57,392 nt of DNA from a virus, in the IMG/VR virus record IMGVR_UViG_3300048587_000172, positions 1-57,392 of that record. One strand, given 5' to 3'. This document shows positions 4,965 through 56,974 of this stretch, in pieces (within the stretch, counting starts at the first letter, position 1; each line of letters opens with the position of its first letter). The translations under genes were made by a program, and so were the position numbers. Under the pieces are notes generated by a model. It worked only from the letters and a program-made list of their open reading frames with translations. It ran no database searches and was not told the DNA's origin.

Positions 4965-5047
4965 CGGGATATGGCGGAATGGCAGACGCTACGGACTTAA
5001 AATCCGTTGTTAGAAATAACGTAAGGGTTCGAATCCCTTTATCCCGA
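4965..5047 (+). tRNA. tRNA-Leu (anticodon TAA)
   Basis: The acceptor stem CGGGATA (4965-4971) pairs with TATCCCG (5040-5046), and the discriminator is A. The anticodon loop CTTAAAA gives anticodon TAA, which reads UUA. A long variable arm (class II) is present, and the T arm is AAGGG-TTCGAAT-CCCTT (5023-5039). CCA is not encoded. UUA is very common in these AT-rich genes, so the tRNA would supplement the host supply. Confidence 0.93.
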
Positions 5048-5609: not shown

Positions 5610-5665
5610 AGTTTCTTTTGGTACTGGCCGATATAAAGGGTAGGAACTTAACCGAAAGGAAACAA

Positions 5666-6010
5666 ATGTTGAAGTCTTTGCATGTGATTTACTGTGATAT
5701 GTGCCAGAATGAGATTATTCAAATTCTTGGCAATGAACCGCCATCGGTTGATGCAATTAAATTAACCGGTGTTGTAGTTGACGATAAAGGCGCACACTTC
5801 TGTAGGAAGTGTTACGGATACGAAAAAATTATCCGATTTGGTAAGACCTACGGAATGTCAGCTACAAATATTAAAGATAAACTGAATAAAATTGCTGTGG
5901 ATATCGACTATAGCAATATTGAAATGAGGGTGGCCGGTCATTTCATGGAAGAAAATGAAATAGAAGCAATCCGTAATCGTCAACGCGATAACAATTTCAA
6001 AATTAGGTAA
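5666..6010 (+). CDS. Zinc-ribbon protein with pol A motif-A look-alike
   Basis: 114 residues from ATG 5666, chosen because AAAGGAAACAA lies just upstream; a TTG at 5618 is much weaker. Two knuckles, C10-x2-C13 and C46-x2-C49, form a treble-clef or zinc ribbon. Residues 79-92 read DIDYSNIEMRVAGH, closely resembling the catalytic motif A of family A DNA polymerases (DYSQIELRVLAH). No polymerase fingers or exonuclease are present. The role is unknown; nucleic-acid binding is likely. Confidence 0.7.
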   Translation: MLKSLHVIYCDMCQNEIIQILGNEPPSVDAIKLTGVVVDDKGAHFCRKCYGYEKIIRFGKTYGMSATNIKDKLNKIAVDIDYSNIEMRVAGHFMEENEIEAIRNRQRDNNFKIR

Positions 6011-8847: not shown

Positions 8848-9762
8848 ATGGATTTGACCATGAATATCGAAGAATTACAAAACTATAATAATTTCATAGC
8901 TAGTCAACTGGAACAACATAAAGTTTATATAGGGAGAAAAGTAAGGTTCTATTTTCAAGATAGATTGGTTGAAGGTATAATTCAAGCTTGTCATTTTAAT
9001 TTTGATTCAGGATACACTTACAGTGTTACATCTGAAAGTATTCCATCTGGATCGACTTCAATCAATACCGCTTTTGTACAATTTATTGTAGAGGGGAGAG
9101 AAATTAGTAAGAAAAATGAAAAGTTAGAATTAAATATCGGAAAAGTAGTGACTTTTATAATAGAAGCTGGACCTAGATATCATACCAAATATTTTAGATT
9201 GTTTGGTACAATTAAAAGTATTGAACATTTGGAAACCTATGGTTCATTTTATAGGATTGAAGTATTGCATGATACAGGGGAAAAACATAACAAATTGATT
9301 CTTTGTAATCGTGTAAATTTTTGCCCTGATTTAATCAATCCTGTAGTTAGTTCTAAATATCTCGATTTTATAAAAAAGATGGGAAATTTTGAACCTAACA
9401 ATAAAAAATTGATAGAAATGTATGATCGTTTAGAAGCAACACAAAATAATAATACTATATCTTCAAAACATAACATTACAAATGAAGATGCAATAACTAA
9501 AGGTTTAATTAATAAGTACAAGCTTGAACATACCGATGGAAGCCCTGTAAATCTTAAAGCTCAATATTTCGTATTGAGAATTGATAACGAAGGTAGAGAT
9601 AAAGAATTTGCAGCGGCATCACGCGCTGGATTAATCAGATTTGCAGAAATGATAAATGCAACTAACAAACAATTAGCAAAAGATTTGTTTGATTTAGTTG
9701 CACATTATCATAATGAAAATTTAGAAGGTAGAGAACCTGTACACGATGAAATACCATGCTAA
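8848..9762 (+). CDS. Phage protein with conserved C-terminal domain of unknown function
   Basis: 304 residues. The start is uncertain: ATG 8848 or ATG 8860, neither with a clear ribosome-binding site. Two strand-rich modules (about residues 25-80 and 95-155; KVRFYFQDRLVEGII and KVVTFIIEAG) may be small barrels. The C-terminal 80 residues (KYKLEHTDGSPVNLKAQYFV, then ASRAGLIRFAEMI) resemble a short domain frequent in phage and bacterial hypotheticals. Function unknown. Confidence 0.6.
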   Translation: MDLTMNIEELQNYNNFIASQLEQHKVYIGRKVRFYFQDRLVEGIIQACHFNFDSGYTYSVTSESIPSGSTSINTAFVQFIVEGREISKKNEKLELNIGKVVTFIIEAGPRYHTKYFRLFGTIKSIEHLETYGSFYRIEVLHDTGEKHNKLILCNRVNFCPDLINPVVSSKYLDFIKKMGNFEPNNKKLIEMYDRLEATQNNNTISSKHNITNEDAITKGLINKYKLEHTDGSPVNLKAQYFVLRIDNEGRDKEFAAASRAGLIRFAEMINATNKQLAKDLFDLVAHYHNENLEGREPVHDEIPC

Positions 9763-13027: not shown

Positions 13028-13381
13028 ATGGATGAAGAATTTCCTACAATTACTAGTAGTAATTTTCGTAAATATATTATTGCTAGTGATTTTATTGAAA
13101 CGTTGGAAAGTCAGGAAGGGTGGATAGCTCTAGATAATGGGGAATGGATTTATCTAGTTTATGTTTGGAGCGATTCTCACAATAGAATTGAGGATATACT
13201 AGATGATAAAAAAGGCGGGATACACTATAATTGGCGCGGTACGTTACGTAATCTAAGACGGATGATAAACGGTAAGTTCGATCCTGATAAGTGTGATTGT
13301 AAAATAGAACCGAAAAATCAAGGGTATAAACAATTGGTCGGTTTGTATAGAGAACTTTTACTTTGGAGTAGAAACAAATGA
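13028..13381 (+). CDS. Hypothetical protein
   Basis: 117 residues with AAAGGT upstream, ending in an ATGA overlap with nrdJ. Acidic and aromatic-rich in the first half (EGWIALDNGEWIYLVYVW), Arg/Lys-rich helices later. One C-x-C pair near residue 90. No family recognised; the coupling to nrdJ suggests co-expression only. Confidence 0.6.
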   Translation: MDEEFPTITSSNFRKYIIASDFIETLESQEGWIALDNGEWIYLVYVWSDSHNRIEDILDDKKGGIHYNWRGTLRNLRRMINGKFDPDKCDCKIEPKNQGYKQLVGLYRELLLWSRNK

Positions 13382-16128
13382 GTGGAATTGTAGTAATCAA
13401 GCGTGATGGATCAATTCAGGATTTTAATAAGAAGAAGATTGCCGATGCAATTCAGAAAGCATTTGAAGCTGTCGGGCAAAAAATTGAGTATGCTCAATTG
13501 GATGTGTTTGCAATTACTGTAGGCGCATCACTTGAACAATCTTATGAGGATAAAGTCAATCCTGAAAACACTACGCAAATTCCTATTGAAGCAATTCAGG
13601 ATGAAGTTGAACAAGTATTAATGGAATCAGAATTTCCGGATGTAGCAAAAGCATATATTTTGTATCGGAATGAACGTCATAAGGAACGTAGTAAAGAATC
13701 TTTACGTCCTGATTCAAGTATGATTAGCGAATATATTCACTTGGCGAAGTACGCGCGGTGGATACCAGAAGAGAATCGTCGTGAAACTTTCGAGGAATCG
13801 GTAGACCGAACTATCAATATGTTTTCGGAGAAACTTACCGAACGTATTACCGATCCATTTACGTTAGAGAAAAACTTAAATATCTTGAAAGAAGCAAAAC
13901 AATTCATCCTGCAAAAGAGAATCCTTCCTTCGATGCGGTGTTTACAGTTTGCAGGTAATCGTATCAAACAACACAATGCAGCTTTGTACAATTGCAGCTT
14001 CTCACTTGCAGACCGTCCGCGTTTTTTTGCAGAAGCTTTATACCTTTTGCTTTGTGGTTGCGGTGTAGGATATTCGGTGCAATCACACCATATCGAAAAG
14101 CTACCGGTTATTAAAGGGTTTGATACGACGCGCGTAACACACCATATCATCGAAGATACTATCATTGGCTGGGCGAATGCTGTCGATAGATTAATTGATG
14201 CCGCTATCAACGGATATTATCCGGAGTTTTCGTTTCATATGTTGCGTCCGGAAGGAAGTTGGTTGCATGTAAGCGGTGGAAAGTCTCCCGGACATTTACC
14301 ATTGAAACGTTTATTGCAAAAATTAGAAACGATACTAAATCATGCAACTGGTCGGCAGTTAAAATCTATTGAAGTGCATGATATGACTTGCCACATTGCA
14401 GAAGCAGTTTTAGCTGGTGGTATTCGTCGTAGCAGTTTGATTGCGCTGTTCTCAATCGACGATGACGATATGACGAATTGCAAAATACCTGAAAACTTCC
14501 GTTATGCTTTCGGTAATGATCCGGGATTGAATCCACAACGTGCGATGGCGAATAACAGCGGAGTCTTGCAACGTAGTAAATGCAGTAAAAATGATTTCGT
14601 TAAGTTGTTTGAATCTGCGCGTCATTATGGCGATCCGGGATTCATCTTTTCAAATGGTGAAGATTACGGATGCAATCCATGTGGTGAAATTGGATTGAAT
14701 CCTAAGATACATCGTTTTGAAAACGAAGATGAGACAATGTACTACGGCGCGTTAGATACAGAGTTTATTACTAGGAATGGATGGAAGCGGGTTAAAGACT
14801 GGTCTAATCATATTACGGAAATGACTGGCTGGTCATTCTGTAATTTATGCGAAGTGAATATTGCGAAGTGCGACGATATCACTAAATTCTTTCGTGCTTG
14901 TGAACTTGCAAGTTTTATCGGCACAATTCAGGCAAGTTTTACCAGCTTTGAATATTTAGGTGAAGTAACGGAAGCTATTTGCAAACGTGAAGCGCTTATT
15001 GGTGTTGGATTAACCGGTATTATGGATAATCCAGAAATTGGAATGAATGCGCAGAACTTAGAAATTGGCGCTCGTTTCGTTGTGGAGTTTAATAAAGCAA
15101 CAGCGAAAGATTTAGGAATCAATCCTGCAGCGCGTTGTACGACGGTAAAACCTTCCGGAACAGCTTCATTATTATTAGGGTGTGTTGGTAGTGGTCGGCA
15201 TCGACACCATGCGCGTAGATATATTCGACGTATTACTGCTAACAAACTTGAAGCAATCGCGCAAGAATTTCGTCGTGTGAATCCGCATATGGTGCAAGAA
15301 AAACCAAATGGCGATTTATCGTTGATGTTCCCGGTATTAGCGCCAATGGGTGCATACGTTGAAAAAGAAGCTACAGCCTTGCAGTCGTTAAATGAAACAA
15401 TCTTTTTATACGAGAATTGGATTCTTCCCGGAACTGCTATCCCTGAATCGTCGCCGGGATTAACTCATAATGTTTCATCTACTGTGAGTGTAAGCGAAAA
15501 TGAATGGGATGGTTTGATTAGCGCGATTTGGGATTCAAAAAATAATCTTGCGTCTTTATCTGTTATGCCGAGAATGGGCGACAAAGGAATCCCATTCATC
15601 CCACGCGAAGAAATTATTGATGGCGATCCTGTTGATGAAGCTATTTGGGAGAAGTTAATTACAAACTACAAACCAGTAGATTATAAACGTGTAAAAGAGT
15701 TTGAAGATTTAACAAATCGAAAAGGCGAAGTTGCTTGTTCTGGTGGAGTTTGTGAAATTGTTGATGCAAATAAAATTAACACTGCTGATGGCACGATTCT
15801 AATTTTTGATGGTGCGGAAGATGGAATCGGTCGCGGTGTGAAATTCCCGTATGACCGTTTCAAAACATTGGAACTTCATAACCGATTTATTTATTATCAT
15901 GGCCAGACAATGCAGGTTTTAAGTGCGGACAGTAATCTACGTTGTATGGTTGTAAAACCGTTACGTGGTAGCAAAAAATCTGACGCGCAACAAAATTTTC
16001 GGTCAATATATTCGATATTAAATAATATTTCCGATCTTTTTGATGATTTGACGGAAAAGAATGTTGATGTACCAATTCGTGAACCATACCCAATTGATTC
16101 AAACCCTAAACTGGACCGATTGACGTAA
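13378..16128 (+). CDS. nrdJ: Adenosylcobalamin-dependent ribonucleotide reductase (class II)
   Basis: 916 residues. An ATP-cone covers about 1-100 (VIKRDGSIQDFNKKKI). The reductase barrel follows: NCSF with C206, then NPCGEIG near 434-440, CNLCEVN, and TVKPSGTASLLLG. The redox tail is CSGGVC (C787, C792), the same spacing as the Lactobacillus-type triphosphate reductase. The enzyme makes dNTPs using coenzyme B12. Two oddities: about 40 extra residues (442-482) containing an intein-block-A-like string (ALDTEFITRNGWKRVKDW), and 124 residues after the tail cysteines, which normally lie at the very end. Confidence 0.92.
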   Translation: MSGIVVIKRDGSIQDFNKKKIADAIQKAFEAVGQKIEYAQLDVFAITVGASLEQSYEDKVNPENTTQIPIEAIQDEVEQVLMESEFPDVAKAYILYRNERHKERSKESLRPDSSMISEYIHLAKYARWIPEENRRETFEESVDRTINMFSEKLTERITDPFTLEKNLNILKEAKQFILQKRILPSMRCLQFAGNRIKQHNAALYNCSFSLADRPRFFAEALYLLLCGCGVGYSVQSHHIEKLPVIKGFDTTRVTHHIIEDTIIGWANAVDRLIDAAINGYYPEFSFHMLRPEGSWLHVSGGKSPGHLPLKRLLQKLETILNHATGRQLKSIEVHDMTCHIAEAVLAGGIRRSSLIALFSIDDDDMTNCKIPENFRYAFGNDPGLNPQRAMANNSGVLQRSKCSKNDFVKLFESARHYGDPGFIFSNGEDYGCNPCGEIGLNPKIHRFENEDETMYYGALDTEFITRNGWKRVKDWSNHITEMTGWSFCNLCEVNIAKCDDITKFFRACELASFIGTIQASFTSFEYLGEVTEAICKREALIGVGLTGIMDNPEIGMNAQNLEIGARFVVEFNKATAKDLGINPAARCTTVKPSGTASLLLGCVGSGRHRHHARRYIRRITANKLEAIAQEFRRVNPHMVQEKPNGDLSLMFPVLAPMGAYVEKEATALQSLNETIFLYENWILPGTAIPESSPGLTHNVSSTVSVSENEWDGLISAIWDSKNNLASLSVMPRMGDKGIPFIPREEIIDGDPVDEAIWEKLITNYKPVDYKRVKEFEDLTNRKGEVACSGGVCEIVDANKINTADGTILIFDGAEDGIGRGVKFPYDRFKTLELHNRFIYYHGQTMQVLSADSNLRCMVVKPLRGSKKSDAQQNFRSIYSILNNISDLFDDLTEKNVDVPIREPYPIDSNPKLDRLT

Positions 16129-48438: not shown

Positions 48439-48487
48439 AACTATTCAATGATAGTTGTGATACAGTCAAATTTTGATAGGTAATTTT

Positions 48488-50677
48488 ATGTCGATTTCAA
48501 TCACTGAATTAATAAAAGATTCAACACACACAAATCATATGGTTTTAGAACCATTATGCACCGCAACAAAAACACTTTTTGAATTTCCAGAATTAGCAGA
48601 TAACATTGTCTGTAATATTGAACTGGATGAATCAGGTGAAGATTTTATAGTCGAACCTTTTGAATTATTTGCAGTTGATGAAAATGATGATGGCAAATTA
48701 TGCCGTTGCGGATATCCAAAAGATACGTGGATGCACAATCCATTAAGCGCAAACAATCATTCATTTTACGAAGCGCACAAAATTCAACTTGGCGATAAGT
48801 GGTATTATCCTAAGAATAATTTATTACCTTATAACGCGAAGAATTGGGTAAGAAAAGTACCCGAAAGAGAAGTTTTAAAAAACAATAATAATGGCTGGAA
48901 ATTAGCAGGTACAGATTTTTCGGCATTAATTATTCAACACGCTTGGAAACCGTTTCAACTTCATTTCAGTGACGACGCAAAATTATTGTACGATTTTCTT
49001 TTGTTACGGTTATACAAACAAACCAAATTTGCAGCGAACGTAGCGCGATTTAAGGTTGAAGGTGTATTACCTTCACTTCCTGATGAATTTATAGACCATC
49101 CAGAATTACCATTAGCGCCGTATCAAAAAGCAGCAGTTGGATTGTTATTAAAAGTTGATGGTTCTGGTTTGTGGATGGAACCGGGAACAGGTAAGACTGC
49201 AACATCAATTGCGCGGATGATGACAGAAGCGCGAATGAAACAAAAAGGATTATTAGGTAATTCTAAAGTAATGTATCGCGCATTAATCGTCTGTCCAAAT
49301 CAGGTTCGATATAACTGGCAATCTGAATTTAATCGTTTTGCGACACTACCCGGTAAATGTGCAGTTGTCCGCGGAGATTCATTACGTCGTCAAAAAACAA
49401 TCTACGACTCAATTCGGCAAGAAACAGATTGTAGTTGGAGCGCTACAATCATTGGAATGGATACACTAGGTAGAGAAGAAGTTTTGCAGTCTATTCCGTG
49501 GGATATTGTAGTTGTAGATGAAGCGCATAATTTTAAGCAACCGTCTACAAAACGTTGGAAAGCGCTTAGGGAGTATGTGGAACTACCGAATGTTAAATCA
49601 CGTATTGAATTAACTGGTACACCAATTCCAAATAGTTTACTTGATTTGTGGACGCAACTTGAATTTATGGGGAAAGGGTTATCTGGATTTAAAAAATACG
49701 ATAATTTTCGAAACTTCTATGGGGTATTTGAAGAATCTTATGATACTGCCGGTCGGGAACATCTAGTTTCATATCAAAATGTTCCTTTACTGCAAGAGAG
49801 ATTAACCCGGCTTTGTTACATGGTAACAAAGCAAGAGGCTAATCTACAATTGCCTGATAAATTAGAAGATGTTATTGAAATTGAAATGTCGTCAAAACAG
49901 TCGAAAGCATATCAAACTTTGTTAAAGACTGTTATGTTAGAGATTGAACAAGATTTATCTTTGATTCAATCTGGTAAAAAAACAATGACCGCTGAACATG
50001 TATTAACTAAGTTAATGCGGTTGGCGCAGATAACCAGCGGATTTTATACTCTTGATCCTATTTACAATCAAGATACTATGGATTTGATTTCTGCTAAAGA
50101 AGTAATTCAAATAGATGAAGTTAATCCAAAGGTGAAAGTGATAATTGATAGTATCAAAGAAGATTTGTATAATGATAAACTAGGTAAAAAAGTTATATGG
50201 GCATGTTTTGTTGAAGATATACGAATACTTAGCCAAGAGTTGAAAAAAGCAGGAATTAATCATGTAGGCTATCATCGTATGTGTGATATTGATTTTAGAG
50301 TACCTACAGCAAGGGATGCAGAACAAAAATTAAATTGTGATGAAAATTGTGATGTATTTATCGGTAATGCGCAAAGTAGTGGTGAAGGAGTTAATTTTCT
50401 AGGTTATGATAGAGAAAACCCTGATTCACATAATCGTTATGTAGATCATATGTTTTTTATGTCGTCCAATTGGCGAGCGGTTTTACGGCAACAAGCAAAA
50501 GATCGCGCGCATAGACGAGGTTCTCGTTGCCCGTCATTGCGAATTACAGATATTATCGTACCCGGTACAGTTGATGAAGAAATTCGTAACAAGCTGCTTA
50601 AAAAGCAAGCGGATGCAGCTACTATTCAAGATGTAAGACAGATTTTAAATGCGTTAGTAGGATTTCAAAATGGATAA
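48488..50677 (+). CDS. SNF2-type DEAH helicase
   Basis: 729 residues from ATG 48488. Walker A EPGTGKT (about residue 231), DEAH (VVVDEAHNF, about 343), ELTGTPIPNS (motif III region), and a final motif VI-like QQAKDRAHRRGSR. Residues 1-200 are an unrecognised N-terminal domain with a short C-x-C (CRCGYP). SNF2-family translocases in phages act in replication, recombination or removal of bound host proteins. First gene after the region B promoter. Confidence 0.88.
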   Translation: MSISITELIKDSTHTNHMVLEPLCTATKTLFEFPELADNIVCNIELDESGEDFIVEPFELFAVDENDDGKLCRCGYPKDTWMHNPLSANNHSFYEAHKIQLGDKWYYPKNNLLPYNAKNWVRKVPEREVLKNNNNGWKLAGTDFSALIIQHAWKPFQLHFSDDAKLLYDFLLLRLYKQTKFAANVARFKVEGVLPSLPDEFIDHPELPLAPYQKAAVGLLLKVDGSGLWMEPGTGKTATSIARMMTEARMKQKGLLGNSKVMYRALIVCPNQVRYNWQSEFNRFATLPGKCAVVRGDSLRRQKTIYDSIRQETDCSWSATIIGMDTLGREEVLQSIPWDIVVVDEAHNFKQPSTKRWKALREYVELPNVKSRIELTGTPIPNSLLDLWTQLEFMGKGLSGFKKYDNFRNFYGVFEESYDTAGREHLVSYQNVPLLQERLTRLCYMVTKQEANLQLPDKLEDVIEIEMSSKQSKAYQTLLKTVMLEIEQDLSLIQSGKKTMTAEHVLTKLMRLAQITSGFYTLDPIYNQDTMDLISAKEVIQIDEVNPKVKVIIDSIKEDLYNDKLGKKVIWACFVEDIRILSQELKKAGINHVGYHRMCDIDFRVPTARDAEQKLNCDENCDVFIGNAQSSGEGVNFLGYDRENPDSHNRYVDHMFFMSSNWRAVLRQQAKDRAHRRGSRCPSLRITDIIVPGTVDEEIRNKLLKKQADAATIQDVRQILNALVGFQNG

Positions 50678-51649: not shown

Positions 51650-51725
51650 CTGAGTTTAAGTACGAATTGAAATAGCGCGTCGTTTCGTACTATTAAAAAT
51701 GTGCGCTAAAAAAGAGGATAGTGTT

Positions 51726-52634
51726 ATGGCAAAGATGAAAGCAGATCGTACAGAAGAATCAACGGATATTACACGTGTAAATCCATCATTTCTTGCAGAG
51801 TATGCAGAACAGGATGATTCATTAGCTTTGATGGGTGGGTATCGAATTATCCCACGTATTAAGGTAATTCAAGGTCAAACTTCACAAGATTTGAAGAAGC
51901 AGTTTGGTGAAGGATCAGCAATTTTGCGTCCGGGTGATTCATTGGTTGCAAAACAGGATCAATCATTCCTGTTCAATCCTTATGTATTTATTCCGGAGTT
52001 TTGCAAGTGGGCAGACCGAAAAGACCCTGAACAACGTGTTATCATTGACCGTTCTTATGATCCTACTTCAGCGCTGGCGAAACGCGCCACAAGTAAAAAT
52101 CCTGATGATAGGATTGAATTGTATCCGGGAGATGAGAAGTTAAACGAAAAGGATAAGAAGTATTTCAAGTGGGTTGAGCATTTGAATTTTATCGGTGCAA
52201 TTTATGGTGAACATGAATTGGCCGGACAAATCATTGCGATTTCGTTTTCACGCGGTGAATACATGCAGGGAAAGGCTTTCATCAATGCCTGTATGCGCCG
52301 GACGATTGTAACTGAATTGTCGAATGGGCAGCGTAAAAAGGTTCAAGCGCCTCTTTGGTCGCAAATCTGGCAGATTACACCAGCGCAGGGACAATCCCGA
52401 ATTAAATCCAAAGGTTCATGGTTTGGTTTGGATTATAAAGCGCCAGAAGGTGATATCAATCCTTTTGTTACTTCCGAAGAAGCAAAAGTATTGCGTGAAA
52501 CTTACAATGAACTTAAACGCGATCAGCAAGAGAACCGGTTGCGTGTGGATCATGACAGCGCTGGTGAAGATCAGGGTAGTAGTGAATCCGACGCCGATGT
52601 AGAGGCGGTGGAACAAGCTAACGGAAAATACTAA
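51726..52634 (+). CDS. Replication-operon protein with acidic tail (possible ssDNA-binding)
   Basis: 302 residues from ATG 51726 (AGAGGAT upstream); ATG 51699 lacks a site. A strand-rich core (MGGYRIIPRIKVIQGQTSQD, then RPGDSLVAKQDQSFLFNPYV) ends in an acidic, disordered tail (HDSAGEDQGSSESDADVEAV) like the protein-interaction tails of single-stranded-DNA-binding proteins. GC-richer, regular codons imply abundance. The function is inferred from shape only. Confidence 0.55.
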   Translation: MAKMKADRTEESTDITRVNPSFLAEYAEQDDSLALMGGYRIIPRIKVIQGQTSQDLKKQFGEGSAILRPGDSLVAKQDQSFLFNPYVFIPEFCKWADRKDPEQRVIIDRSYDPTSALAKRATSKNPDDRIELYPGDEKLNEKDKKYFKWVEHLNFIGAIYGEHELAGQIIAISFSRGEYMQGKAFINACMRRTIVTELSNGQRKKVQAPLWSQIWQITPAQGQSRIKSKGSWFGLDYKAPEGDINPFVTSEEAKVLRETYNELKRDQQENRLRVDHDSAGEDQGSSESDADVEAVEQANGKY

Positions 52635-52688: not shown

Positions 52689-52736
52689 AAGCTAGATAGG
52701 TAATAATAGATGTTGTTACCTATCTAGCTTTGTTTT
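52689..52736 (+). terminator. Intrinsic terminator
   Basis: AAGCTAGATAGGTAA (52689-52703) pairs perfectly with 52716-52730, then TGTTTTT. It ends the 48488-52634 operon, or sets a lower level for the downstream primase gene. Related in sequence to 961-1014. Confidence 0.85.
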
Positions 52737-52748
52737 TAGGAATGTGCA

Positions 52749-55616
52749 ATGGCGAAGAATAACCGTAGTCGCATTGAAAATGTAGATGCGATAAAGGAAT
52801 TGGATCGGTTAAATGTAAAGTATGAAAATGCAGGAGAAAATGAAGTTAGATTACTATGTCCGGTACATGGTGATAAATCGCCTAGCTGCTGTTTAAACAC
52901 AGAAAAAAATGTTTGGCGTTGCCCTGTTTGTAAAGAACATGGTGATATTGCTACATTGATTGCGTATCTAGAGAAAAAAGATAAAAATAGTGTATTAGCT
53001 GATTTAGCAACACGATATGATATTGCTGGTGCAAATCTAATAAGTCTGGAACTAATTGAAAAATACCATAACAATATATGGGATTCAGGTAATCTATTAA
53101 ACGAATTATATAAACGTGGTATTAGCGATCAAATGATCCGCCATGCACGGTTAGGGGTATCTGGTGATAGGATAACCATTCCTATCTATGATCGTCATAA
53201 CAACTGTTTAAACGTTCGTAAGTATCTTCCCGGTGCGGCAGGTAGATTGAAGATGCGTAACGCTTCTTCCCACGGTAAGGCAGCTTTATACAGACCAGCA
53301 GATACAGGATATGAACAGGTTTGGATATGTGGTGGTGAATTAAAAGCGTTGGTAGTAGGGGAAATGTTAAAATCGGAAGGAATTGGCGCTGTAGCAGGTA
53401 GTGCGGGTGAAGGGGCATGGAATGATGAGTGGACGGAACTATTAGCTGATAAATATCTGTACGTATGTCTCGATATTGACAATGCAGGCAAAGCAGCGGC
53501 AATGAGTTTGGCCGGTAGGTTCTGGTCTAAAGCCAAAAAGGTATATATTATCAATATACCTTTAGATGAGAAGAAATACCCTAAAGGTGATATTAACAAC
53601 TTCATTGCAGAAGGCGCAGGAAAGAAAGAACTTTTGCAGTTGATGAAAGCAGCAGAACCTTATTCACCGCCACAACTAGATAGTGATATTGATGATAGCG
53701 AACAAATACCTAAGATGGTTCGATTAGTAGATGCGCCAGTTAGTGAAAATATAGGAATGAGGATAGGAGTTAAAGCGGTTATTTCAGTGATGGATGAAAA
53801 CCCTTATCTCATTCCTGAAAAAGTAGGATGCTCTTGTGATAGAGCGCAACCAAATTGTTTTCAATGTCCAGTGTACACTAAAAAACCGGATGATAAAGGT
53901 ATAGTACAGATTACAATTCGTTCTACATCTTCTGGTATCCTGCAAATTGCAGAAGCGCCGGAAAGTATACAACAAAAAGCAATTCAAAAAGCATTGCGTA
54001 TACCGCCCTGCAAAGCGGTTACTTTTGCGATTTACAGCCACTATAATCTTTATGATTGTAGGTTGATACCGCAATTAGCTATCAGTGGGGATAACTCCGA
54101 TCATGTGGTTATGCCTGCTATGATTATTGGTAGAGGATTAAAAACTAACACCCCTTATTGTTTTAGCGGTAGGGTATATGCGTCCCCTACAGATCAAAAA
54201 GCTACGCTACTGTTAGATAAGATGGAACATACGGAAGATTCTCTATCTACTTTCAAACCAGAAGATGATGCGATCAAAGATTTAGAGATATTCCAAGCTA
54301 AGGATGATTCTTACGAAGCGATTGAAGAAAAATTAAACCATATCTACGACGATCTAGAAAGTAATGTTACTCAAATTTTTTGTCGAAGGGATATCCATAA
54401 AGCTATTGATTTTACATACCATTCCTCTTTGAATTTTATATTTGATGGTCATATTCAAAAAGGTTGGGTAAATACTTTAGTCATTGGCGATTCTTCGCAA
54501 GGTAAGACAGAACTATCAACTCGTCTTTTACGTCATTATGTAGTAGGAGAATTAATACCTTGTAAAGTAGTGTCTAAGGTAGGTTTAATCGGTGGTGTAG
54601 ATAGTGGACCAAACCAACGAAAATATATTTCGTGGGGTGCTATTCCTATTCATGATAAAAGGCTTCTATTCTTAGAAGAGTTTAAGGGAGTATCAACTGA
54701 TATCATATCTAAGATGACCGACATGCGGTCTAGCGGAGTAGCTGAAATTACTATGATTGAAAAGAGAAAGGCGCATGCGCGCACTCGATTAGTATTTTTA
54801 ACAAATGCTAGATCGGAACGTGCAATATCTTCTTTTTCATTTGGTATTGAGGCTATTAAGGAATTAATGGGAGCCTTAGAAGATATTAGACGAATTGACT
54901 TGGCAGTTATCTTATCAGCACAACAAGTAGATTCAAAAATTATTAATACAATAGCTAAGGATCGTAAGGAAGTAGAACATATCTACGAATCTGATTTATG
55001 TAGATTGCTTGTATTATGGGCTTGGACTAGAAATGAAAATCAAATTGTTTTTGAACCGGATGCAATAGATGAGTGTCTGATTCAAGCTAATAGATTGTGT
55101 GGAAAGTTCCATGAAAGCTTACCTTTGATTGATAGAGGGACAACGAAATTCAAAATAGCACGTTTAGCGGTAGGATTAGCGGCTAGATTATTCTCTACGA
55201 CTAAAGACTTACAATCTATACGAGTTTGTAAGTCTCATATAACGTATATTGCAGATTATATTGACCGTATATACTCCGATCAGACTTTTGGTTATGCAGA
55301 CTACTCAAAAGCTCAAGAGTATCGCAATAAAATTCTAGACCCTAAAATCGTAGAGAAGAATCTACTAGATTTGCAGTTTGCAAAAGATATGGTAGAACAT
55401 CTACTACATGCAGACGAAATTCAACCTAACGATCTATGTGATTGGGGAGATTTAGATAGAGATAGTGGACAAAAACTACTGTCTTTATTGGTTCGGAAAC
55501 ATGCGATTTATCGTAATCGAAAGTCATATTCGAAAAGTAGTGAATTTATTGGAATGTTAAAACGTTTACAAAAAGATGCGCTGAATCAAGATGAATCAGA
55601 TGATTCTAAATACTAA
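52749..55616 (+). CDS. Primase fused to an MCM-like AAA+ helicase
   Basis: 955 residues. C37-x2-H40...C58-x2-C61 is a CHC2 zinc finger. TOPRIM follows (GGELKAL about 195, LDIDNAG about 240). Residues about 310-500 hold a cysteine cluster (CSCDRAQPNCFQCPVY) and an OB-like region (YCFSGRVYASPTDQ). The AAA+ part has Walker A GDSSQGKTE (about 579), KVGLIGGVD, Walker B LLFLEEF (about 640), ARTRLVFLTNA and IRRIDLAVIL, the MCM order with its arginine finger. One polypeptide would prime and unwind. No DnaB-type helicase is present. Confidence 0.85.
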   Translation: MAKNNRSRIENVDAIKELDRLNVKYENAGENEVRLLCPVHGDKSPSCCLNTEKNVWRCPVCKEHGDIATLIAYLEKKDKNSVLADLATRYDIAGANLISLELIEKYHNNIWDSGNLLNELYKRGISDQMIRHARLGVSGDRITIPIYDRHNNCLNVRKYLPGAAGRLKMRNASSHGKAALYRPADTGYEQVWICGGELKALVVGEMLKSEGIGAVAGSAGEGAWNDEWTELLADKYLYVCLDIDNAGKAAAMSLAGRFWSKAKKVYIINIPLDEKKYPKGDINNFIAEGAGKKELLQLMKAAEPYSPPQLDSDIDDSEQIPKMVRLVDAPVSENIGMRIGVKAVISVMDENPYLIPEKVGCSCDRAQPNCFQCPVYTKKPDDKGIVQITIRSTSSGILQIAEAPESIQQKAIQKALRIPPCKAVTFAIYSHYNLYDCRLIPQLAISGDNSDHVVMPAMIIGRGLKTNTPYCFSGRVYASPTDQKATLLLDKMEHTEDSLSTFKPEDDAIKDLEIFQAKDDSYEAIEEKLNHIYDDLESNVTQIFCRRDIHKAIDFTYHSSLNFIFDGHIQKGWVNTLVIGDSSQGKTELSTRLLRHYVVGELIPCKVVSKVGLIGGVDSGPNQRKYISWGAIPIHDKRLLFLEEFKGVSTDIISKMTDMRSSGVAEITMIEKRKAHARTRLVFLTNARSERAISSFSFGIEAIKELMGALEDIRRIDLAVILSAQQVDSKIINTIAKDRKEVEHIYESDLCRLLVLWAWTRNENQIVFEPDAIDECLIQANRLCGKFHESLPLIDRGTTKFKIARLAVGLAARLFSTTKDLQSIRVCKSHITYIADYIDRIYSDQTFGYADYSKAQEYRNKILDPKIVEKNLLDLQFAKDMVEHLLHADEIQPNDLCDWGDLDRDSGQKLLSLLVRKHAIYRNRKSYSKSSEFIGMLKRLQKDALNQDESDDSKY

Positions 55617-55625
55617 AGGTGAAAT

Positions 55626-56123
55626 ATGGAATTAATTAGTCGACAAGATATGGTTAATAGATTTATGGAAAAGTATGGTATTAAAGGAAAGACTGATTTA
55701 AAAATTGTAGATAATTATGATAAGTCAAGACTTGTGAATATTCGAATAGACTTATTATTTTTAGCTACATACTTTAAAAGTAAAGCGGCAAATTTTACTA
55801 ATCCTCATACTACTATACAATGGAGACTTCATCTACTATTTAATGAATTAGAAGAATTATTAGATGCGATTTTAAATAAACCAGAACATGAAGTCTCACA
55901 CGAATTAGCAGATTTAGCTTATGTAATCGAAGGTTTTGCAGTTAATATGGATATCCCTTTTGATAGAATTTTTCTAGAAATACATAATTCTAATATGACG
56001 AAAGACTTGACACTTAGTGATATCAATTGTGCAACACGTGGAAAAACAGGATCATTTTGTAAGCCAGATATCGAACCGATAATTAAACTTCATCGTCAAT
56101 TAAATAATCAAGAAAAGGAATAA
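55626..56123 (+). CDS. MazG-like NTP pyrophosphohydrolase
   Basis: 165 residues with AAAGGTGAAA upstream. LLFNELEELLDAI and HELADLAYVIEGFAVNMDIP supply the EExxD/ExxD metal-binding pattern of the MazG/HisE all-alpha pyrophosphohydrolases, and FLEIHNSNMTK the usual end. It could clear non-canonical nucleotides or lower alarmone levels. Neighbours in nucleotide metabolism support this. Confidence 0.85.
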   Translation: MELISRQDMVNRFMEKYGIKGKTDLKIVDNYDKSRLVNIRIDLLFLATYFKSKAANFTNPHTTIQWRLHLLFNELEELLDAILNKPEHEVSHELADLAYVIEGFAVNMDIPFDRIFLEIHNSNMTKDLTLSDINCATRGKTGSFCKPDIEPIIKLHRQLNNQEKE

Positions 56124-56128
56124 CTGTT

Positions 56129-56974
56129 ATGAACTACTTTGATAGCTTCGATGAGTTATGGTTATATGCTGCAAATCAGTTGATTGAAGATGGAGAAATT
56201 TACGCTGGTGAATATGGTAATGTCAAAGAATTTTTAGGGTTTGGTGCTAGAGTAAATCTAGCCACTAAATCATTTCTTTATAACCCTGTAAGAATGATTG
56301 ATCCATCCTTAGCGGCTGGTAGCGTTCTATGCAATCTTGATTCTAGCTTATTTAATGTATTTGGATTATATGATGATAAATTTATATTCATGATTCATGG
56401 ATTAGAACAGAAATACTTAAAGGAAGTCTCTGAAAATATTCGAACATCCAATAGAATTGATGTAGAATTGAGACAAAATGCTAGTTCAATCCACATTCTT
56501 TTAATGCGTAAAAATGATATCTTGAATATGATATTGACAATAAATAAGACAGATATTTGGTATCATCTTCCATATATAGTTTTTATACTTGGATCGGTTC
56601 AAAGATTAATCGCATCATTTGCGGGTGTCGAAGTAGGATGGATGCAAATAGCAGTATCAAATTTGGTTATTTCTGAAAGTATGATAGAAAGATTAAAAGA
56701 AGCTGCAAATCCACCGTCTTTTAATGTGGCAGAATTAGAATCAAGTGATATGGGGAACGTATTCTATATTATTCCGAAAGCTTTAGGGTTTGAAAGTTAT
56801 GCAAGAGAAACAGGAAACATGCCTTTTAATTACATAACAAATCTACGGTATAATTTACTTGGACATTTAGCGATTATGGCTGGTATGAAATGGTCTGAAA
56901 GAAAAGATTTAGTAGCTGATAAAGTTGAAGATAAGTATATGTCTCAATATTTAAGACTTTTCTATCAGGTGTAA
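56129..56974 (+). CDS. Thymidylate-synthase-like protein lacking catalytic residues
   Basis: 281 residues with AAAAGGAAT upstream. The order KEFLGFGARVNLATKSFLYN, SLAAGSVLCNL, then LTINKTDIWYHLPYIVFILG and VEVGWMQIAVSNLVIS parallels ThyA (RSCDVFLGLPFN..., LEVGDFVWTGGDTHLY). But the catalytic Cys is replaced by Ser (S119/S120), the Arg-Ser of RSxD is NK (NKTD 139-142), and the Asn of LPFN is Ile. It is probably a pseudoenzyme or has another substrate. ThyX at 10424 would supply the real activity. Confidence 0.7.
   Translation: MNYFDSFDELWLYAANQLIEDGEIYAGEYGNVKEFLGFGARVNLATKSFLYNPVRMIDPSLAAGSVLCNLDSSLFNVFGLYDDKFIFMIHGLEQKYLKEVSENIRTSNRIDVELRQNASSIHILLMRKNDILNMILTINKTDIWYHLPYIVFILGSVQRLIASFAGVEVGWMQIAVSNLVISESMIERLKEAANPPSFNVAELESSDMGNVFYIIPKALGFESYARETGNMPFNYITNLRYNLLGHLAIMAGMKWSERKDLVADKVEDKYMSQYLRLFYQV

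Follow-up and report, generated by a model that had tools for sequence, protein, structure and literature searches.

In textbook accounts, a DnaG-type primase works with a helicase that moves 5'-3' on the lagging strand, and an MCM helicase with a primase of the archaeo-eukaryotic (AEP) type. Here we ask whether a tailed phage has departed from this pairing within a single gene, and which family of motors its helicase belongs to. The window, i.e. the whole stretch of DNA that was analysed, is the complete IMG/VR virus record IMGVR_UViG_3300048587_000172 (57,392 bases), which carries terminase, portal, head, tape-measure and tail genes elsewhere. A preliminary description, made from the letters alone, had proposed that one of its open reading frames joins a CHC2 zinc finger and a TOPRIM fold to a cysteine cluster, an OB-like region and an AAA+ domain. 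This open reading frame lies exactly at the position given there, and all of these parts proved to be real, as judged from Pfam, AlphaFold2 and conservation.

A DnaG-type primase joined to an MCM-like chain

The first third of the protein, up to about residue 320, is a DnaG-type primase (CHC2 + TOPRIM), and residues from about 320 to 950 form a complete MCM-like chain, with the following layout:

52749..55616, + strand: primase–MCM fusion gene; ATG start, 955 codons (amino acids), intact, without internal stop
52788..53024, + strand: CHC2 zinc ribbon, residues 14-92, with C37, H40, C58 and C61 (Pfam PF01807, conservation)
53313..53603, + strand: TOPRIM catalytic fold, about residues 189-285, with E197, D242, D244 and D281 (PDB profile matches to DnaG, conservation)
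53721..54248, + strand: MCM-like N-tier, about residues 325-500, with a putative zinc site (C363/C370/C373/C421) and OB-type strands (AlphaFold2, conservation, profile)
54264..55283, + strand: MCM-type AAA+ motor and lid, residues 506-845 (Pfam, PDB profile, AlphaFold2, hhalign, Foldseek)
54486..54509, + strand: Walker A GDSSQGKT, residues 580-587 (K586 invariant, 56/56)
54588..54635, + strand: helix-2 insert hairpin, residues 614-629 (AlphaFold2 strands 615-619/625-629)
54660..54683, + strand: Walker B (LLFLEE; E644 in 55/56)
54738..54776, + strand: pre-sensor-1 hairpin, residues 664-676 (AlphaFold2 strands 664-668/672-676)
54804..54806, + strand: sensor 1 N686 (conserved 56/56)
54891..54893, + strand: arginine finger R715 of IRRID (56/56; aligned with the MCM SRFD/SRMD motif)
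55293..55538, + strand: C-terminal winged-helix domain, about residues 849-930 (AlphaFold2 helices and hairpin; profile alignment to the MCM C-terminus)

The CHC2 ribbon is matched by PF01807 above its cut-off (E=1.1e-9), and its C/H/C/C residues are kept in 45-49 of the 50 aligned relatives that have the residue. For the TOPRIM fold, the Pfam match of the lone sequence is weak (0.0043). For E197, D242, D244 and D281, however, conservation is nearly complete (51-53 of the 52-53 relatives in which the residue is present). When relatives were included in a PDB profile search, Aquifex DnaG (2au3) was found at 5e-28; this structure, 5guj and 1dd9 match the fusion family over profile positions 133-300. 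The search also picked up further DnaG cores, that of E. coli among them, and T7 gp4 in its primase half. The fusion protein does not reach the full-length DnaG equivalog TIGR01391 (48 bits, cut-off 283.6), so the module is DnaG-type and distinct from cellular DnaG. Pfam found no AEP domain (DNA_primase_S) in the fusion protein.

The MCM domain PF00493 is also detected in the fusion protein (E=5e-6, 26.2 bits against a cut-off of 23.3) and in 9 of 9 aligned phage proteins, that of the window among them. A control search, however, matched the same model in 14 of 14 control genomes, E. coli and B. subtilis included. As PF00493 is non-specific for MCM, we built the case on the N-tier and on profile and fold comparisons instead.

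In the N-tier, the cysteines C363, C370, C373 and C421 are kept in 54, 54, 54 and 50 of 56 alignment rows. The MCM motif order read in the preliminary description (Walker A, KVGLIGGV, LLFLEEF, ARTRLVFLTNA, IRRIDL) was borne out, and all 56 rows share its key residues K586, R660, R680, N686 and R715 without exception; Walker B has EE in the window protein and DE in most relatives. Pairing by hhalign sets GDSSQGKT on the MCM Walker A, KVGLIGGV on SKTGLTASAV, LLFLEEFKGV on CIIDELDKV, ARTRLVFLTNA on the MCM sensor-1 segment ending in AANP, and RRID on the SRMD arginine-finger motif. AlphaFold2 modelled the whole fusion protein with a pLDDT of 90.5 (56 sequences) and residues 310-955 with a pLDDT of 92.3 and a pTM of 0.88 (42 sequences), predicting OB-type strands (338-494), then an AAA+ core with helix-2-insert and pre-sensor-1 hairpins, then a winged helix. 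With either model as Foldseek query against the PDB, the best 50 matches listed are all MCM chains (E 1e-23 to 1e-19, best 9.7e-24; TM up to 0.66; alignments of 560-660 columns), and identity to cellular MCM in these structural alignments is 12-16%. As modelled, the C-terminal part is thus an MCM-like chain composed of zinc/OB N-tier, AAA+ motor and winged helix.

The classical partner of a TOPRIM primase, whether fused or coupled to it, is an SF4 motor, and a weak AAA_25 match (E=0.14) was seen; the helicase part might hence be a DnaB/T7 gp4-like (SF4) or D5/SF3 motor with a superficial MCM resemblance. In hhalign, however, an alignment of MCMs from archaeal viruses matched the C-terminal part at 99.7%, across 470 columns that include N-tier, lid and winged helix, against 0.4% with DnaB, 0.2% with T7 gp4 and 1.6% with the P4 alpha SF3 helicase, each of these three entered as a single sequence; single MCMs reached 97-98.5%. 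The MCM profile alignment, which supports the N-tier from residue 424 onward, extends through residue 926. T7 gp4 was matched in the PDB profile search in its primase half alone, neither DnaB_C nor D5_N is present in the window, and an hmmsearch with the family profile left DnaB, T7 gp4 and P4 alpha unreported. We consider an SF4 or SF3 motor extremely improbable: with hhalign and Foldseek alike, the ranking is the opposite of one that sets DnaB/RecA or D5/SF3 far above MCM, and the preference for MCM in the preliminary description was well placed.

A motor of the ComM/YifB or Mg-chelatase-like type, from the same helix-2-insert clade of AAA+ proteins and with a role in branch migration or recombination, is a closer competitor. 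It would agree with the PF00493 matches in bacterial control genomes and with the 91% that E. coli YifB, as a single sequence, reached in hhalign over the AAA+ core. This similarity is limited to 139 motor columns, as opposed to the 470 columns shared with MCM, and in the same family-profile hmmsearch YifB scored 12.8 bits and archaeal-virus MCMs 31-63 bits, which makes this assignment very unlikely.

A phage family with two kinds of primase

The fusion extends beyond the one phage of the preliminary description, as our searches revealed a widespread family. The relative in phage MW202657 is 44% identical over 98% of the protein and has the same gene order, which places the fusion far beyond chance. 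In tblastn, the whole protein found 57 phage records, 45 of them with 80% or more of the query matched at a single place, and the helicase part found 50 records in Microbacterium, Arthrobacter, Bacillus, Weizmannia and Paenibacillus phages plus two environmental ones. An alignment was needed as query in IMG/VR, where it yielded at least 80 further loci; when the window protein alone was used there to look for close relatives, no match was obtained. GTDB genomes and PLSDB contributed two loci each, so that this is essentially a phage family. Among 91 classified loci (a hand-counted tally that takes in the window and some near-duplicates), 71 have TOPRIM in the same open reading frame, 10 have an AEP primase, and 10 are truncated, split or without a primase in the frame. 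The TOPRIM–MCM architecture is found in some 50 deposited phages and some 70 loci.

Public annotation names the Krampusvirus and Wollypog proteins 'DNA primase/helicase' and those of Bacillus BSP7/BSTP and Weizmannia Youna2 'DNA primase'; in the listed tblastn hits, all of these have the same architecture, with about 28% identity over 86-94% of the length. PHROG 18685 labels the fusion family 'unknown function', and among the records examined an MCM homologue is named in one only, vB_BboS-125, which is of the AEP type.

Some loci depart from the one-gene form. A break at one shared position, between OB tier and AAA+ motor (about window residues 520-527), divides the gene in L068 (7739-11260) and L090 (9917-13570), with primase and N-tier in one gene, AAA+ and winged helix in another, and two small open reading frames in between. 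This looks like gene fission; an intron is unsupported, as there is no Rfam match and small open reading frames separate the parts. Three further loci (L045, L058, L061) have MCM-core frames in which no primase could be recognised.

The AEP-bearing relatives have the same MCM core as the window protein, and their primase module was confirmed by Pfam (DNA_primase_S down to 5e-18, e.g. L081). In the tree of the MCM core, AEP rows are placed among TOPRIM rows, requiring two changes. Forcing them into one clade was mildly rejected (AU p=0.014, for a group chosen after the tree had been seen). How many exchanges took place, and in which direction, is uncertain, since the AEP row that stands apart, L059, sits on a long branch and no root has been set for the tree. 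At least one primase exchange is needed wherever the root lies. L059 and L076, long-branch loci with AEP-type primases outside the main AEP group, hint at more than one. An MCM core that has exchanged two non-homologous primases would mean that in nature the type of primase is not tied to the type of helicase, and the AEP and TOPRIM forms on one core offer natural primase-swap pairs for studying primase-helicase coupling. We think it probable that the family is a widespread lineage with a hybrid replisome, in which a DnaG-type primase sits on a 3'-5' MCM ring whose core has been exchanged between TOPRIM and AEP partners.

Neighbouring genes and a proposed role in replication

The fusion gene lies in a syntenic block with these neighbours:

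48473..50677, + strand: SNF2-type helicase, syntenic neighbour (PF00176 4e-33; 40% to MW202657)
51699..52634, + strand: Pam3 gp34-like protein, directly upstream, synteny kept (PF23977 8e-6; 38% to MW202657)
55626..56123, + strand: NTP pyrophosphohydrolase-like protein, directly downstream (PF01503 2e-10; MW202657 synteny)

The order shared with MW202657, a complete circular phage, runs SNF2, gp32-like, gp34-like, primase/MCM, NTP-PPase, hydroxymethylase-like, dCMP deaminase-like, and in MW202657 a family-A polymerase follows this block. The window ends within the dCMP-deaminase-like gene, ahead of the expected polymerase position. A search with the polymerases of near relatives found no DNA polymerase in the window, because the record ends before that region. 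A PolA match at 5888-5989 (E=7e-4) was rejected, as it lies inside a 130-aa open reading frame without a relative in phage records; that frame (5618-6010) has stretches resembling the family-A motifs B (FGKTYGMSATNIKDKL) and A (DIDYSNIEMRVAGHF), but in inverted order, with B ahead of A.

Other features of the window were recorded alongside. Origin iterons beside the fusion gene were considered and dismissed, since only short or two-copy repeats and one hairpin were seen; the latter (52689-52730), close ahead of the gene, is a nearly perfect 18-nt inverted repeat around a 6-nt loop and possibly a terminator or regulatory hairpin. The product of 56129-56974, adjoining the NTP-PPase and dCMP deaminase-like genes, is weakly related to a MW202657 protein annotated as pyrimidine hydroxymethylase, and this neighbourhood might serve base hypermodification. 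Elsewhere, the window contains a 916-aa ribonucleotide reductase (13378-16128; ATP-cone 1e-21, weak barrel-domain match 0.05), a single tRNA-Leu (TAA) gene (4965-5047) and a formylglycine-generating/sulfatase-modifying-factor-like protein (8848-9762; phrog_9572, 1.6e-8).

In related records, PolA exceeded its cut-off in 17 of 42, DnaB_C was found in 0 of 42 and D5_N in 0 of 28. Since many of these records are fragments, the absence of DnaB and D5 weighs most in the complete genomes checked (MW202657, Youna2, Krampus, BSP7, vB_BboS-125 and Wollypog).

The gene very probably encodes the phage's own replicative primase-helicase, an MCM-type 3'-5' ring with TOPRIM priming. The C-terminal 630 residues would most likely assemble into an MCM-type hexameric ring, whose zinc/OB tier and AAA+ motor may encircle DNA, with the winged helix as adaptor, and which would use ATP hydrolysis to translocate 3'-5' along the leading-strand template. 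Short RNA primers for the lagging strand, left outside the ring, would be made by the N-terminal CHC2-TOPRIM module, in six copies per ring, and extended by the phage family-A DNA polymerase encoded downstream in complete relatives. The fusion would thereby stand in for the host DnaB-DnaG pair. For hexamer, polarity, primer synthesis and the strand primed, we infer the behaviour of the fusion protein by analogy, the 3'-5' movement on the leading-strand template and the TOPRIM priming of the excluded strand from BcMCM and Cch2. Such a protein breaks the textbook pairing, and its primase would have to work on the strand excluded from the ring, like Pol alpha-primase, which acts on the excluded strand beside the eukaryotic MCM-based helicase.

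Alternatively, the protein could have a true MCM fold and yet be an accessory or restart enzyme, engaged in leading-strand re-priming or recombination-dependent replication, rather than the main helicase. Such a role was suggested for BcMCM (PMC4538821), and SNF2-type and RecA/exonuclease-like genes are common neighbours. The fusion, however, has its own primase, often lies near a family-A polymerase gene, and is carried by phages without a DnaB or D5 helicase (42 and 28 records), so that we regard this role as unlikely. The preferred reading as replicative primase-helicase is directly testable, because cultured phages of Microbacterium foliorum and Bacillus subtilis carry the fusion.

Comparison with known primase-helicase systems

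MCM helicases in phages, also together with AEP primases, are established (PMC5862659). The literature covered, apart from one key 2016 survey of viral replication proteins that may list the fusion, gave no description of the TOPRIM–MCM pairing, of its breadth or of the primase exchange.

The closest functional precedent is BcMCM, the AEP/MCM primase-helicase of a Bacillus cereus prophage (McGeoch & Bell 2005; Samuels 2009; reviewed in PMC4538821), a 3'-5' helicase with ssDNA-stimulated ATPase for which primase and polymerase activities were detected later (PMC4538821). Like the fusion, it is one phage-encoded polypeptide with an N-terminal primase and a C-terminal MCM motor, but its archaeo-eukaryotic primase is unrelated to CHC2-TOPRIM; direct homology between the two is inferred by way of AEP-bearing phage proteins such as that of vB_BboS-125. 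Cch and Cch2 of SCCmec, a bacterial mobile element, are MCM-like helicases with biochemically demonstrated 3'-5' polarity; they are stand-alone proteins, and the partner of Cch2 is CCPol, an A-family polymerase-like primase, instead of a TOPRIM primase (PMC7581432).

T7 gp4 and DnaG-DnaB resemble the fusion in that a CHC2 + TOPRIM primase is fused or coupled to a hexameric helicase, the hexamer being predicted in our case. Their motor, of the RecA-like SF4 kind, runs 5'-3' along the lagging-strand template, whereas the fusion has an MCM-type AAA+ motor expected to move 3'-5' on the leading strand. Sso MCM, Mcm2-7 and the MCMs of haloarchaeal tailed viruses share the Zn/OB N-tier, helix-2 insert, pre-sensor-1 hairpin and winged helix; these archaeal, eukaryotic and viral proteins, about 12-16% identical, come without a fused TOPRIM primase. 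The TOPRIM–MCM fusion, a single polypeptide whose primase is of the bacterial type and whose motor is of the archaeo-eukaryotic type, may reasonably be proposed to form a distinct replisome architecture.
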